DNA of 51,976 nt, from NCBI GenBank assembly GCA_007376725.1, contig VMGT01000004.1:1-51976 (forward strand). The letters are read 5' to 3'. This document shows positions 1-7,475 of the stretch, piece by piece; the first letter of the stretch is position 1; the number at the start of each line of letters is the position of its first letter. Position numbers and translations under genes: made by a program. Source of the DNA: Parcubacteria group bacterium Greene1014_15 (GTDB taxonomy: Bacteria; Patescibacteriota; Minisyncoccia; Phycocordibacterales; VMGT01). The notes below the pieces were generated by a model, which was given only the letters and a program-made list of their open reading frames with translations, had not been told where the DNA came from and made no database searches.

Positions 1-618
1 GATCATGTCTGCTTGCGCATCCACAATCCCATCCAACCGGGAAACTCGTTCACCTAGAGCTACAATTTCTTGATCCAGAACATCTTTGGTAACGGGTACC
101 TGTGGAGAAGTTTTCTCCGCAATCATTGCCATTGTAGCAGGCAAACGAATAATTGAACCTCTGCAAATCTCATTCAAATTAGAAATCTGCGAGTCAAGGT
201 ACTTCACCGCTTCAAGGTACGCGTCTCTCGTTTCTATTTCCCTCTCGGTAAAAGCGCTATATTTTTTCCAATAGCCTAAAACAGTGTCACCCCATGCAAT
301 CCTCGTAGAATAGACGTGCACATCCCCTATATCCGGTATGGACAGAGACTGTATCCCCTGAATAGGTTGTGCATCGGCACAGACAATCCGTGACCTACTC
401 TTTCTAACTGTGGTAGAAGCTTCCGTTGCCGAGATATCCCCCCTCACGCCCGCAACGGCACTTTTTACGGCATCCGGAAGTTCATCCTTTTGACCCGCAA
501 TCGCCAACCGCACCGCATCCGGCATCTGCATAAGATTTTCTTGCCCAAAAACAGGTACGGCACAACAGACGAGCACGAGCGCCGTAAAAAGACTCATGTG
601 CATACGCTTTCCTCTCAT
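1..618 (-). CDS. Secreted protein of unknown function, signal peptide, runs off the left edge
   Basis: Reverse complement open from ATG at 618 to base 1: MRGKRMHMSLFTALVLVCCAVPVFGQENLMQMPDAVRLAIAGQKDELPDAVKSAV...VSRLDGIVDAQADMI; clear signal peptide; absent from the ORF track because it has no stop inside the window. Confidence 0.75.
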   Translation of the reverse strand, partial: MRGKRMHMSLFTALVLVCCAVPVFGQENLMQMPDAVRLAIAGQKDELPDAVKSAVAGVRGDISATEASTTVRKSRSRIVCADAQPIQGIQSLSIPDIGDVHVYSTRIAWGDTVLGYWKKYSAFTEREIETRDAYLEAVKYLDSQISNLNEICRGSIIRLPATMAMIAEKTSPQVPVTKDVLDQEIVALGERVSRLDGIVDAQADMI

Positions 619-704
619 TACGCTCTCCTTTTCTCAAACGGCACAAAAACATGACTCAAAACTTCACATGTACAACCGTGATTACACTACATACATATAA
701 AAAT

Positions 705-731
705 TTGTCAAGTCCCGCAAATACTTGACAA
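705..731. promoter_or_regulatory. Symmetrical divergent promoter region: TTGTCAAG-N11-CTTGACAA with opposing TTGACA -35-like boxes
   Basis: Inverted repeat ttgtcaag (705-712) / cttgacaa (724-731) between divergent genes starting at 618(-) and 835(+). Confidence 0.45.
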
Positions 732-834
732 TATACTCCCGTGGTGGTTCAATGTCACGCAGATTCCACGGGCGCAAAAGCGCTCTACGGCTAGAAAAAG
801 GCATTTTGCACATTGTCATGAAGGATATGCATCA

Positions 835-1266
835 ATGAACAGATCAGTAGTGCTTCGAGTAGTGCTAGCTTTGTCCATGTCCGTTGGCGTACGTAATGCC
901 TGCGCACAATGGGCATCGTCGGTTTCCCCTGCGGAAAACTTTTTCCATTCTCTCGGATTCCAGAGTGCTCTCGATCGAGGGGCAGATTACAATTTTATCC
1001 GCCTACAAGAACAAATCCGCAGCGGTAAAACAATCGGGGATACATATTACCCATTCGAGGGAGACATGATAAACAACACCTCAATCGGGGTAATTATTTC
1101 AGATAGCCCCGGCGCTACCGGGACCAACAACGGACCGGTGAGTGCACAATCAAACCTCGGCAGTCGCGGAGGCGCTGGGAGTGGTTCGATTAATCATCAA
1201 GGATCATTCACCATACAAGCGCCCGCTCCGAAGCCTAACCCATGCATAAAGGAGTGCCCGCAATGA
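835..1266 (+). CDS. Small secreted Asn/Gly/Ser-rich protein, candidate fibre/surface subunit
   Basis: Signal peptide MNRSVVLRVVLALSMSVGVRNACAQ; C-terminal half with NNTSIG and TNNGPVSAQSNLG motifs; ATGA overlap with the next gene. Confidence 0.65.
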   Translation: MNRSVVLRVVLALSMSVGVRNACAQWASSVSPAENFFHSLGFQSALDRGADYNFIRLQEQIRSGKTIGDTYYPFEGDMINNTSIGVIISDSPGATGTNNGPVSAQSNLGSRGGAGSGSINHQGSFTIQAPAPKPNPCIKECPQ

Positions 1267-2576
1267 ACTGGCGCAAAAAAATATTCGTTTGCACTATATC
1301 GCTTGGCTGCTTTCTCATCGTAACCGGTTGCAGGGGTATGCTGCCAAAAAATGTAGAGTGGGCGGAAAAGCCAGGGGTTCAGGTGCCACAAGTAAAACGG
1401 TCACAGAATTATTATCCTGAACTCGACAACTGCCAGCGCAACATACTTTTCGCAGGAAAACCATCAACAACAATTATGGTCGTGGACGGTAATGATTATT
1501 CCGGCAAAAGAGATTATTACACTGGATTCTTCTTGTCCCAAGCATTTGCCGGATTTGTCATGGATCCGATCAAGCGCACCGCTTCGAATATCACCATGAT
1601 GGACGGGACAAGAATGGCGCGCGATATCGTTTCATGGATGCGGCAGAACGCAGTTCAAGGGGAAACGCCGCAACCTGTATGGCAAGCGCCGCCCGGAGTC
1701 GAGTTTATTCTGATCGTTGAAATAAACGGCCTTGATTTCTCAAAAGGAACTGTCGCCGAAGCTGAAGTATTTAAGGCCGGCGCAGGTCTCCGAACGTATG
1801 GTGGGCTTATCTCTCTCCATGCACGACTTGTGCATCGTTCGGGAACTGTTGTTGCAATCAGTAATTTCCAAAAAGATGTGCCGGGCATAACGGCATATCT
1901 TAAGACAAGCGGTGTTATTGAAAAAATGTTGGTGCATGCGCGCCTTGAAGCAGGTGAACATGAAGCATTTCAAAATGCCCTTCGCGCACTCTCACACATT
2001 GCAGAATACGACATATTCGCAAAATTCTATGGCGACCGTACCTGCGATAAAGATGCACAAGGGATATTCGATGGAGAGACATTGACGGAAGACATACCAC
2101 CTTATAAGCGACACCAACATTTAGCCGCACTGGCAAAAATTAAGAAACCAGAAGCAACGCAACCCGTCCAAACCAAAACACCGCAATGTCCGCTTGGCAT
2201 TTCTGATATTGTTGTGGAAGTCATACCCTACGACGGCCACAATAACGACACATTCGATCCGGAACGAAACGAAAAGCAAAGGCAGGCGATGCAACACATC
2301 GTAACATGGTGGCAAAAAGGGTGTATCGTCAAAAGTATTGAAGGTGTGCGTTGCCCGAAACCGCCAAAATCGGGAGTTGTGCTTGCGCGTGCAACAAAAC
2401 CAGCAGAATGGTTACACAAAGGAGGCATACCAAAACCATCTGCAATCGAAATGCCAGAAAAAAAACTCGCTGCGCTGCATGCAACATGCGTGAAAGAGAA
2501 GGGATGCGACGAAGACACGTATCCATGGTTTTACGCCGGATATGCCACAATCGTGCATCCAAATCATCAACCCTAA
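1263..2576 (+). CDS. Lipoprotein, CsgG/HfaB-like (curli/holdfast-type export channel family)
   Basis: MNWRKKIFVCTISLGCFLIVTGC lipobox; VEFILIVEINGLDF...GAGLRTYGGLISLHARLVHRSGTVVAISNFQKDV...LEAGEHEAFQNALRALSHIAEYDIF follows the CsgG/HfaB family pattern; ATG at 1263 overlaps the upstream stop (ATGA). Confidence 0.5.
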   Translation: MNWRKKIFVCTISLGCFLIVTGCRGMLPKNVEWAEKPGVQVPQVKRSQNYYPELDNCQRNILFAGKPSTTIMVVDGNDYSGKRDYYTGFFLSQAFAGFVMDPIKRTASNITMMDGTRMARDIVSWMRQNAVQGETPQPVWQAPPGVEFILIVEINGLDFSKGTVAEAEVFKAGAGLRTYGGLISLHARLVHRSGTVVAISNFQKDVPGITAYLKTSGVIEKMLVHARLEAGEHEAFQNALRALSHIAEYDIFAKFYGDRTCDKDAQGIFDGETLTEDIPPYKRHQHLAALAKIKKPEATQPVQTKTPQCPLGISDIVVEVIPYDGHNNDTFDPERNEKQRQAMQHIVTWWQKGCIVKSIEGVRCPKPPKSGVVLARATKPAEWLHKGGIPKPSAIEMPEKKLAALHATCVKEKGCDEDTYPWFYAGYATIVHPNHQP

Positions 2577-2665
2577 ACTGGAAAAGGATCATTGTAGAAA
2601 CTGAAAATTGAGTTGCTGTTCGAAGTCGGTTTTATATTCACTTGAATAAACACAAGGAGAACACC

Positions 2666-3091
2666 ATGAAAAAGTTCATGAACATTGTTATCGCTTTTGC
2701 AGCTCTCACACTCATGGCGACGCCCGTGCTCGCATGCCAAGGCGATGATTGCCCATTTGGACACCATCATCGTCACCATCACCATCACCATTGGTCCCCG
2801 CCTAATCCGCAGTCAAACGTGAGCGGTTTCAATGACGCTCCTGTTGTTGCGATCATAAACGGCGGTTCCCTTATCGTAGCGGGCCCCGCAGACATCACGA
2901 ACACCGCCGCAGGCGTGCTTATGTCAATGCCCGCAGGATGTGGAGAATGTCCACGCGGCGTCAATGTATCCGGTGTTAACACCGGTCCTATAGACGCCAT
3001 TGTGAACATTGGAAACGCGCACTTTCATGGGCCGCTCAAGCTAGACAATACAGCGATTGGCACCGGCATATTCAACGCCGACAAGAAGTAG
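2666..3091 (+). CDS. Secreted His-rich protein with two ~41-aa internal repeats
   Basis: SD aaggag; signal peptide MKKFMNIVIAFAALTLMATPVLA; GHHHRHHHHHHW; repeats NVSGFNDAPVVAIINGGSLIVAGPADITNTAAG and NVSGVNTGPIDAIVNIGNAHFHGPLKLDNTAIG. Confidence 0.75.
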   Translation: MKKFMNIVIAFAALTLMATPVLACQGDDCPFGHHHRHHHHHHWSPPNPQSNVSGFNDAPVVAIINGGSLIVAGPADITNTAAGVLMSMPAGCGECPRGVNVSGVNTGPIDAIVNIGNAHFHGPLKLDNTAIGTGIFNADKK

Positions 3092-3101
3092 GTTGCAAGA
3101 A

Positions 3102-3142
3102 GGGCAGAAGATAGCAAATATCTTCTGCCCTTTATTTTTTTC
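3102..3142 (+). terminator. Intrinsic terminator
   Basis: gggcagaagata-gcaaa-tatcttctgccc followed by tttatttttttc. Confidence 0.8.
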
Positions 3143-3163
3143 TTCCTCTGTTATACTTACTCT

Positions 3164-4132
3164 ATGAAAAATACCTGCCCGCCTGGAATTTCAAAGAAAC
3201 TTGCACAAGGTCTCATTCTTGATGAACTCTTTGCATTACTTTTATATAAACACTGGAGTAAAAAAGCTTCACCAGAGCTCGCGCACGTATTGAGCGAACT
3301 CACTGCTATCGAAGAAAAACACTACGTCTTCTGGCAAAAATTTTTAGGACATGCAATGGGCTCACTTACGCTCGGGCGCCGAATTAAACTCACGGTATTT
3401 CTATTTGTTACAAAAATTTGGGGCGAGAAAGCCATGCATCTTCTTCTTGAGGCAACAGAAGTAAATAGTATTCGCAAGCACCTCCAAATCTGGAATATCT
3501 GCGCGCATACCGAATACGAAAGCATGGTGCGTGCGATCATCGAAGAGGAATTCGGGCGCGAGGACGCCATTATTGAAAAACTTATTACACGAAAAATCAA
3601 TCCTGAACGCATCCGTAACATTTTTCTTGGTTTCAATGACGGCCTCGTGGAGTTGCTCGGCGCTATAAGCGGTTTTTATGCCGCCTTCGCCAATACCTCT
3701 TCCGTGGTTGTTGCAAGCATCACGGTCGCCGCCGCGGGAGCAATATCCATGGGCGCCGGCGCCTACGTCGCACTCGGCTCACAAAACGAAATCTCTAAAA
3801 TCGAGGCGCAGAAGCTCGCCTTCAAAAATCCGGAAGCGAACGTATCTCTCACGCATGAACGCCTCTTTGTAAGCGGCGCAACTGTTGCTATTTCATATTT
3901 TATCGGGGCACTCGTGCCCCTTACGCCAATTCTCTTCGGATCAAAAAATATCTTTCTCTCGCTTGCATGCGGCGGAATACTGATTATTCTGGTGTCAGCA
4001 GTGCTCGCCTTTCTTTCAGGAATGAACGCGCGGCGGCGGATTGCGACAAATCTAGTGCTCATTATTGGCGCAGTTGTCCTATCATACGGCATAGGTATTT
4101 TTGCTCGAAATATATGGGGGATTTCAATCTAA
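3164..4132 (+). CDS. VIT1/CCC1-family membrane protein with N-terminal ferritin-like/rubrerythrin domain
   Basis: NIFLGFNDGLVELLGAISGFYAA...SMGAGAYVA VIT1 signature; N-terminal helical E..H repeats. Confidence 0.8.
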   Translation: MKNTCPPGISKKLAQGLILDELFALLLYKHWSKKASPELAHVLSELTAIEEKHYVFWQKFLGHAMGSLTLGRRIKLTVFLFVTKIWGEKAMHLLLEATEVNSIRKHLQIWNICAHTEYESMVRAIIEEEFGREDAIIEKLITRKINPERIRNIFLGFNDGLVELLGAISGFYAAFANTSSVVVASITVAAAGAISMGAGAYVALGSQNEISKIEAQKLAFKNPEANVSLTHERLFVSGATVAISYFIGALVPLTPILFGSKNIFLSLACGGILIILVSAVLAFLSGMNARRRIATNLVLIIGAVVLSYGIGIFARNIWGISI

Positions 4133-4138
4133 AAATGA

Positions 4139-4169
4139 AAGCGCCCACAACAGTTTATTGTGGGCGCTT
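4139..4169. terminator. Bidirectional hairpin between convergent genes
   Basis: aagcgcccacaa-cagttta-ttgtgggcgctt. Confidence 0.65.
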
Positions 4170-4181
4170 GGTGCGCGAAAC

Positions 4182-5153
4182 TCATGTATTCTCTTCTGCT
4201 TCATCCATCACATTCCGAAGCAGTAGAGGAAACAGGGCAGGAAAATCAGAGTATGCCTCACTGACAAGTTGTGAGAGTTCACGCTCGTTGCAAAGAGCCT
4301 GATCTAATCGAAGTTCGAGATCCTCGATAACCTCGAGAAGTTTTTCCCGTTCGGCAATCCAAGCTTCTTCGACTTCTTCATGCGCTTCACTTTCCTCATC
4401 CTGTTCACGACAAATCTCCGTCATCTCATCTTCAACGCCGGCAAATTCAAGTTCCATTGCTTCGATCCGTTCGCGATACTTCTCGTTCATCCGCCGGGTA
4501 CTCTCGAGCGCTTGCTCAATATCTTCCGTTTCAGAAGTTTCTTCCATAAGCTGCTGCCGCCAATCATCGTACCGAAGCACGAGTCTTTCAAAATAGAGAC
4601 TTTTTGCGGCTTCTGTGAGAAAATCCAGTGACGGTCGTGCGAGAAAGCAAAACATTTTGTGCGGAGAAATATACCATATATGTTCGCAAGACTCGTAGGA
4701 CTTGCGAAAGTTTGTGGTAAATTTTCCCGCCGGCGTTACAAGATCGACAAATGCTCCATCAGAAATTGAGATCGAAACACCTGAAACTGGAACCGAAAAT
4801 GCAAGAGAGAGATGTGTTTTCGGACGTCCGTTTCTGTCTGTTGTTACAGAGATAAATACAACAGTATCCTGGTGCACTTCACTTTCACAACACGAACATC
4901 GTGTGTCCGGCACGATATGCCGGACCACAACACCGACTAAGCCTTTTTCGGGTTGCGCCGGAGTCCCAATGACGATTGATTTTAATCTGCCATCAGATCC
5001 CCTCTTCGTTTCTTTTACCTGCTCACTTGTTCCCAAGAGTATGAAAGAGTCTGTCGATAAAACGGTCTTAATGACACAACAGTGCTCCTTGTCCTCTGTG
5101 GTTGCAAGCAAGGCGTCGGGTAGCTTTTTCTCGCCCCCATTCTTCTTACGCAT
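4182..5153 (-). CDS. Hypothetical protein with C-terminal coiled coil
   Basis: Long ORF, 323 aa, Glu-rich heptads; no family recognised. Confidence 0.65.
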   Translation of the reverse strand: MRKKNGGEKKLPDALLATTEDKEHCCVIKTVLSTDSFILLGTSEQVKETKRGSDGRLKSIVIGTPAQPEKGLVGVVVRHIVPDTRCSCCESEVHQDTVVFISVTTDRNGRPKTHLSLAFSVPVSGVSISISDGAFVDLVTPAGKFTTNFRKSYESCEHIWYISPHKMFCFLARPSLDFLTEAAKSLYFERLVLRYDDWRQQLMEETSETEDIEQALESTRRMNEKYRERIEAMELEFAGVEDEMTEICREQDEESEAHEEVEEAWIAEREKLLEVIEDLELRLDQALCNERELSQLVSEAYSDFPALFPLLLRNVMDEAEENT

Positions 5154-5276
5154 TGCTGCCCCCTGTCTTTGACTCCATAGAGAAATACACTTACACCTAT
5201 TCGCACTAATTCTGCCCCTAGTTTGACATACTTCTTAAAAAAGTCAACAATGGCGCCCTCATAACCTCTCACACAT

Positions 5277-5376
5277 GTCATTGCGAGCGTAGCGAAGCAA
5301 TCCAGGATTCTGAGGGGAAATCTCGAATTTTGAGGTAGTCTCACTGGATTGCTTCGGGCTTTGTTCTCGCAATGAC
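5277..5376. repeat. REP-like palindrome (gtcattgcgag...gaagcaatccag / ctggattgcttc...ctcgcaatgac)
   Basis: Imperfect inverted repeat; second diverged copy at 12543-12618. Confidence 0.7.
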
Positions 5377-5413
5377 GGCTCTGTTGCTGAGTCTTTAGCT
5401 TGTAGCAGGCGTA

Positions 5414-5599
5414 AGAAACTGTCTAAAGTCTAATGCCTTGAAAAAATGTTCAAATTTCGAGCGAAAATCACATATTCTGACGAAGCATATCGAGATACGT
5501 TGAGGAGGAATAGGTGATTTGTAGCTGAAATTTGGGCATTTTTACAGGCAAGCGTATATTCTACCTCGTTTTTTAGCAGTTAGACTTTAGACAGTTTCT
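5414..5599. repeat. Long-hairpin intergenic element, copy A
   Basis: 20-bp perfect terminal inverted repeat agaaactgtctaaagtctaa (5414-5433) / ttagactttagacagtttct (5580-5599); interior semi-complementary and related to copies B and C. Confidence 0.8.
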
Positions 5600-5626
5600 A
5601 AGTGGTTACTTGCTCTCTTTGGCCGT

Positions 5627-6049
5627 TTACCCTCGATGCTTTCTGCGCACGCGTATGCGATTGAGTTCCCGGTCAAGGAGCGACTGGAAGCGCGCATACT
5701 CGACATCATCAATATGTTCTTTTTCCTCGAGCATTTTTTGCGCGCGGGCGCGGGCAGCTTCCGCCGCCTCGAGATCAATATCTTCTGCGCGTTCGGCAGT
5801 ATCCGCAAGCACGACAACCTCGCTCTTGGGCCTAATCTCTGCGACTCCATGCGATACAGCAAAGTGATGCGAAACTCCACCTTTTACGATAATCATCTCT
5901 CCCGGTCGAAGAAGCGTTACGAGCGGACGATGATTCGCAAGAACAGTAATCTGCCCTTCAGCCGTCGGAAGAGACACCTGATCAACAGCATCATCTTTAT
6001 ATGCTACTCCTTCGGGCGTTACAACACTGAATGAAAGTGTGTGTACCAT
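5627..6049 (-). CDS. atpC: F1Fo ATP synthase subunit epsilon
   Basis: MVHTLSFSVVTPEGVAYKDDAVDQVSLPTAEGQITVLANHRPLVTLLRPGE. Confidence 0.9.
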   Translation of the reverse strand: MVHTLSFSVVTPEGVAYKDDAVDQVSLPTAEGQITVLANHRPLVTLLRPGEMIIVKGGVSHHFAVSHGVAEIRPKSEVVVLADTAERAEDIDLEAAEAARARAQKMLEEKEHIDDVEYARFQSLLDRELNRIRVRRKHRG

Positions 6050-6056
6050 ACAATTT

Positions 6057-7475
<1,419 letters not shown>

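Follow-up and report, generated by a model that had tools for sequence, protein, structure and literature searches.

A divergent HfaB-family protein in a candidate HfaABD-like surface-adhesin operon of a patescibacterial genome

How ultra-small Patescibacteria hold on to partner cells or surfaces is largely unknown; discussion of their attachment has centred on type IV pili as the leading candidate (PMC12206443). An initial annotation of a contig from Parcubacteria group bacterium Greene1014_15 (VMGT01000004.1), made from the DNA alone, had proposed a curli- or holdfast-like export locus around a lipoprotein of CsgG/HfaB type. In Caulobacter, HfaB is located in the outer membrane and is needed for the surface localization of HfaA and HfaD, which hold the holdfast (PMC6707917), and Patescibacteria have been proposed to be without an outer membrane (PMC12102498). 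The locus therefore raises the question of which family its central protein belongs to and what such a protein would do in such a cell. An HfaABD-like operon would give a single genus a definite attachment system that can be put to the test, and the locus also bears on whether Patescibacteria have any outer-membrane-like layer. Judged by titles, abstracts and term counts, the literature searched contained no paper that seems to describe a holdfast, curli or CsgG system in these bacteria.

Layout of the locus

The window, by which we mean the whole stretch of DNA that was analysed (51,976 nucleotides), is one entire contig of a 1.17-Mb genome (1,171,584 bases in 55 contigs, rated 100% complete). 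The four open reading frames with signal peptides, including a lipobox in gene 3, lie where the initial annotation had placed them, and the features of the locus are as follows.

1..618, minus strand: gene 1, incomplete (N-terminal part only), exported, in divergent orientation; signal peptide MRGKRMHMSLFTALVLVCCAVPVFGQ
835..1266, plus strand: gene 2, 143 aa, small exported protein in the hfaA position; signal peptide ends ACAQ
1263..2576, plus strand: gene 3, 437 aa, divergent HfaB-family protein
1263..1331, plus strand: signal peptide and lipobox (LIVTG-C) of gene 3, read from the sequence; codon of Cys23 at 1329-1331
1305..2027, plus strand: HfaB-like region of gene 3, residues 15-255, from hhalign against HfaB-type proteins and from hmmsearch
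2031..2573, plus strand: C-terminal extension of gene 3, residues 257-437 (about 180 residues); OmpA-like wall binding possible, similarity not significant
2666..3091, plus strand: gene 4, 141 aa, small exported repeat protein in the hfaD position; signal peptide ends VLA-C
2816..2914, plus strand: repeat unit 1 of gene 4, 33 residues (0 of 2000 shuffles)
2963..3061, plus strand: repeat unit 2 of gene 4, 33 residues (0 of 2000 shuffles)
3099..3133, plus strand: terminator-like hairpin with a 15-pair stem and a T tail, which closes the unit

Genes 2 and 3 overlap in the ATGA at 1263-1266, confirming the overlap that had earlier been read as translational coupling. The hairpin at 3099-3133 sits directly 3' of gene 4 and ahead of a gene for a ferritin-like/VIT protein, and genes 2, 3 and 4 therefore look like a single transcription unit.

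Gene 1 could not be completed, because the left end of the window is the end of the contig; no overlap of this end with any other contig of the genome was found. A reading of gene 1 by eye as a LysM protein was given no support by Pfam. The equivalent contig of a sister species (see below) also stops inside gene 1, where its region 1-273 encodes an exported, divergent product with a similar PxAV..A motif, and the fact that the contigs of both species stop there suggests a repeat or other assembly-breaking sequence just past this gene.

Relationship of gene 3 to HfaB and CsgG

By sequence comparison, gene 3 belongs to the HfaB family, as a divergent member homologous to HfaB. Its scan against NCBIfam gave one match, to the HfaB model NF037935 (E = 8.8e-7, 28.4 bits), and the protein of the sister species matched the same model independently and over the same region (E = 0.004). 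For comparison, plasmid-borne HfaB-type proteins were gathered through CsgG and HfaB-type searches, and five of them were used to build profiles; those scanned against the HfaB model scored 139-195 bits. Neither they nor gene 3 reach the equivalog cut-off of 300 bits that NCBIfam sets for HfaB proper, and because its score is far under this value we file gene 3 as a divergent family member and not as HfaB itself.

Profile comparisons gave the same assignment. Alignment by hhalign of a two-sequence gene 3 profile with the five HfaB-type proteins gave a probability of 97.3%, E = 2e-11 and a score of 84.2 over residues 15-255, compared with a maximum of 23.4 in 25 column-shuffled controls, whereas a CsgG-only profile scored 22.1 against 17.7 for shuffles, which is not significant; a mixed CsgG/HfaB profile scored 65.7 (shuffles 25.9). 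An HMM of the five HfaB-type proteins found gene 3 as its sole match among the 1,220 ORFs of the genome (E = 5.9e-11; next best 1.7). A CsgG HMM run against the same ORFs did not find it and had no hit in the genome, and a Pfam scan of gene 3 that included CsgG (PF03783) gave no match. In a maximum-likelihood tree, gene 3 and its sister protein fell inside the HfaB group, which was split from CsgG with support of 100/100, although their position within the group is on a long branch with moderate support (86). Of the CsgG/HfaB resemblance noticed initially, the HfaB half has thus held up and lies far above chance; membership of the CsgG family is rejected, since PF03783, the CsgG profile and the CsgG HMM were all without a significant match, and the proposed link of the locus to curli proper is not supported.

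Structural searches contributed little to this assignment: searching PDB sequences with gene 3 or its two-row profile returned chance stretches only, and AlphaFold2 models had pLDDT values of 30 (one sequence) and 33 (two sequences), at which their Foldseek matches are meaningless.

The HfaB-like region of gene 3 spans nearly all of the 271-residue Vibrio HfaB-type protein. Within it, few gaps interrupt the alignment of the segments that form the constriction loop and the two transmembrane hairpins in the CsgG structure. The FRF motif of the family has been lost from the second of these hairpin regions, which is nevertheless almost identical in the two species, and the Gly-Cys of the lipobox (C23) is likewise kept in the sister protein. 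The C-terminal extension is suggestive of OmpA by eye; its hhalign score of 13.8 against OmpA is below that of shuffled controls (16.8) and therefore not significant, and the Pfam scan found no OmpA-like domain there. Long C-terminal extensions are also found in the Variovorax and Pacificitalea HfaB-type proteins, and that of the Variovorax protein has a weak OmpA match (E = 0.044).

The small exported proteins

Scans of genes 1, 2 and 4 against Pfam and NCBIfam gave no match, including none to CsgE, CsgF or curlin. Asn/Gly-rich repeats, which the initial annotation had mentioned for the small secreted proteins of curli and holdfast export, are well supported in gene 4 only, which contains two Asn/Gly-rich units of 33 residues with starts 49 residues apart (score 76, 0 of 2000 shuffles); the sister-species gene 4 has an internal repeat too (score 54, 0 of 2000 shuffles). 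Genes 2 and 4 have in common a stretch of the form NTSIG...NNGPV.AQ.N.GS (hhalign 27.5, shuffled maximum 14.7), and their pairwise similarity was equalled in 7 of 2000 shuffles, or 48 of 2000 for the sister-species pair. By analogy, such sharing of a motif recalls surface fibres, in which the nucleator and the main subunit are related in this sort of way.

Against HfaA-like and HfaD-like profiles made from the plasmid loci, neither protein showed a match beyond layout and composition, and these comparisons thus gave no signal for genes 2 and 4 as HfaA and HfaD homologues; both are, however, small exported proteins in the right places. Layout, export and repeats would make them putative fibre subunits. 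The gene 4 product also carries a natural poly-His stretch at residues 32-43 (FGHHHRHHHHHHW), behind the signal peptide, which is missing from the sister protein.

Distribution and origin

A genomic-context search in related genomes found the same genes in the same order on contig JAHFLU010000029.1 of the metagenome-assembled genome nzgw440, a second species of the genus and the sister species referred to above. In both this contig and the window the locus is adjoined by the VIT gene and then by ATP synthase genes. Identity between the two species is about 64-65% for gene 3, 66% for the neighbouring VIT gene and 48-52% for the small proteins, which thus diverge faster than either; dS is saturated between the two species, and dN/dS is therefore unusable. 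We rejected a chimera or contamination, because the order of locus, VIT gene and ATP synthase genes recurs in the assembly of the second species and the G+C content of the locus is 48%, against 46% for the rest of the contig. This G+C content shows no sign of recent import. Between locus and ATP synthase genes, the sister-species contig also has a 530-aa ORF (5049-6641, minus strand), of galactose-oxidase/kelch type by eye, for which no counterpart was seen at this position in the window.

Among 397 genomes of the order, gene 3 was found in two, and a search of 377 found gene 4 in just these two. Across the phylum, the HfaB model matched the window genome alone among 380 genomes. PF03783 had some match in four of the 380, over the cut-off in three (G057, G659 and G737). 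The three proteins over the cut-off come, like gene 3, from small genomes of the phylum, but belong to the CsgG superfamily without profile similarity to gene 3, and the short flanks read around their genes held no comparable operon. That of G057, another genome of the order, is a 288-aa protein (1411-2277, minus strand) with the lipobox LVGC.

Searches of plasmids by tblastn with genes 3 and 4, and of viral contigs with gene 3, found nothing. The simplest reading of this distribution is lateral acquisition by an ancestor of the genus.

The envelope of the host

Ribosomal protein L30 was not found in the genome, while most other ribosomal proteins tested were. Absence of L30 is a feature of Candidate Phyla Radiation bacteria, and the genome looks patescibacterial in this respect.

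Omp85 was not found in the genome, nor were LspA and Lgt in it and 30 relatives of the order, the Lgt result being the weaker because its control missed B. subtilis. A tblastn search of the genome with E. coli BamA, Skp, LpxD, Lgt and LspA, which as a single-sequence search is insensitive, also gave nothing. A lipobox census of the 216 ORFs that have a hydrophobic segment at the N-terminus yielded nine candidates, of which many lie within longer transmembrane stretches; Cys was not enriched after lipobox triplets. With LspA and Lgt found in none of the 31 genomes and with very few lipobox proteins in this one, lipoprotein maturation may be missing from the lineage entirely. That the host has no outer membrane is judged here by gene absence and not by observing the envelope. 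With these envelope genes missing, the conserved lipobox and outer-membrane ancestry of gene 3 present a real puzzle, and the oddity of such a protein in a Patescibacteria-type genome, remarked on initially, has been strengthened by the failure to find Omp85, LspA and Lgt and by its being the sole HfaB match in the phylum sample. Where neither Omp85 nor lipoprotein processing is recognizable, a protein of outer-membrane type that two species have kept must have another seat or another job.

Proposed role and alternative explanations

On balance we favour the view that genes 2, 3 and 4 are an HfaABD-like surface-adhesin operon, in which gene 3 would export or anchor both small proteins at the surface, as its homology and the gene layout suggest. 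Like Caulobacter HfaB, gene 3 would form a complex bound to the envelope, through which both small proteins are exported and/or anchored. Outside the cell, gene 4 with its two repeats and gene 2 with part of the motif would build an adhesive coat or the base of a fibre, which would probably serve to attach the cell to a partner or to sediment. The extension at the C-terminus of gene 3 may perhaps tie the complex to the cell wall. To judge by its distribution, the system was probably acquired laterally from an outer-membrane bacterium and then kept in the genus, and it seems that an attachment device of outer-membrane bacteria has been taken over by a cell expected to have no outer membrane. 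More tentatively, and with some doubt, we can envisage an HfaB-type outer-membrane secretion complex at work in a cell without recognizable genes for outer-membrane assembly or lipoprotein maturation, either in an unrecognized outer bilayer or rebuilt for a single-membrane wall or for the membrane of a partner.

If the absence of Omp85, LspA and Lgt is taken at face value, gene 3 might have no pore function at all, and act as a wall-bound anchor in a single-membrane cell, held by its N-terminal segment and C-terminal extension and merely tethering surface proteins exported by Sec. The altered second hairpin agrees with this, as does the long extension, in which a model of very low confidence places elements in an OmpA-like order. 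We nevertheless think it unlikely, because gene 3 still has both hairpin regions in collinear order, with high conservation between the two species, and the OmpA relation is not significant. The same missing machinery, together with the episymbiotic life of cultivated Patescibacteria (PMC12206443), could suggest that the cell releases the complex or displays it on its surface, and that it works in the envelope of a partner cell to which this organism attaches; a signal peptide and lipobox point instead to the cell's own envelope, which makes this highly improbable.

The operon that we favour also presumes that genes 2 and 4 are substrates. They might be mere neighbours of an HfaB-family protein of unrelated role, since neither has detectable similarity to HfaA or HfaD; this would be rather surprising, however, given the overlap of genes 2 and 3, an order conserved in two species, the confinement of gene 4 to the two genomes that have gene 3 and the similar layout of the plasmid HfaB-type loci. 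Finally, CsgG and HfaB are remotely related and equivalent segments can be placed in both, but we regard a true curli (csg) system here as scarcely credible: gene 3 matches neither PF03783 nor, significantly, the CsgG profile, and the locus has no match to CsgE, CsgF or curlin.

Comparison with known systems

Gene 3 shares with Caulobacter HfaB a lipobox and collinearity over the whole HfaB domain, and the locus has the hfaA-hfaB-hfaD order of small exported protein, HfaB and exported repeat protein. It differs in the score of gene 3, 28.4 against a cut-off of 300 bits, in the C-terminal extension of about 180 residues, in small proteins that are not recognizably HfaA or HfaD and in a host without recognizable outer-membrane or lipoprotein machinery.

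The closest measurable relatives of gene 3 (97.3% by hhalign) are encoded by the plasmid HfaB-type loci of Variovorax, Pacificitalea, Vibrio, Photobacterium and Loktanella, which have similar neighbours, although their hosts are proteobacteria with an outer membrane and the proteins are only about 20% identical to gene 3. The loci of Variovorax and Pacificitalea consist of a small protein, an HfaB with an extension and a large secreted protein. In the Variovorax operon (2436-6753 of the plasmid region read) the HfaB-type protein has a possible OmpA-like domain and its partner, in contrast to gene 4, is a giant S-layer-type protein; the first two genes are annotated merely as hypothetical proteins. 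In the region read from the Vibrio plasmid (4896-6825), two genes for exported proteins, of repeat or Gly-rich type, come after the HfaB-type gene, and together they form an HfaABD-like set carried by a plasmid.
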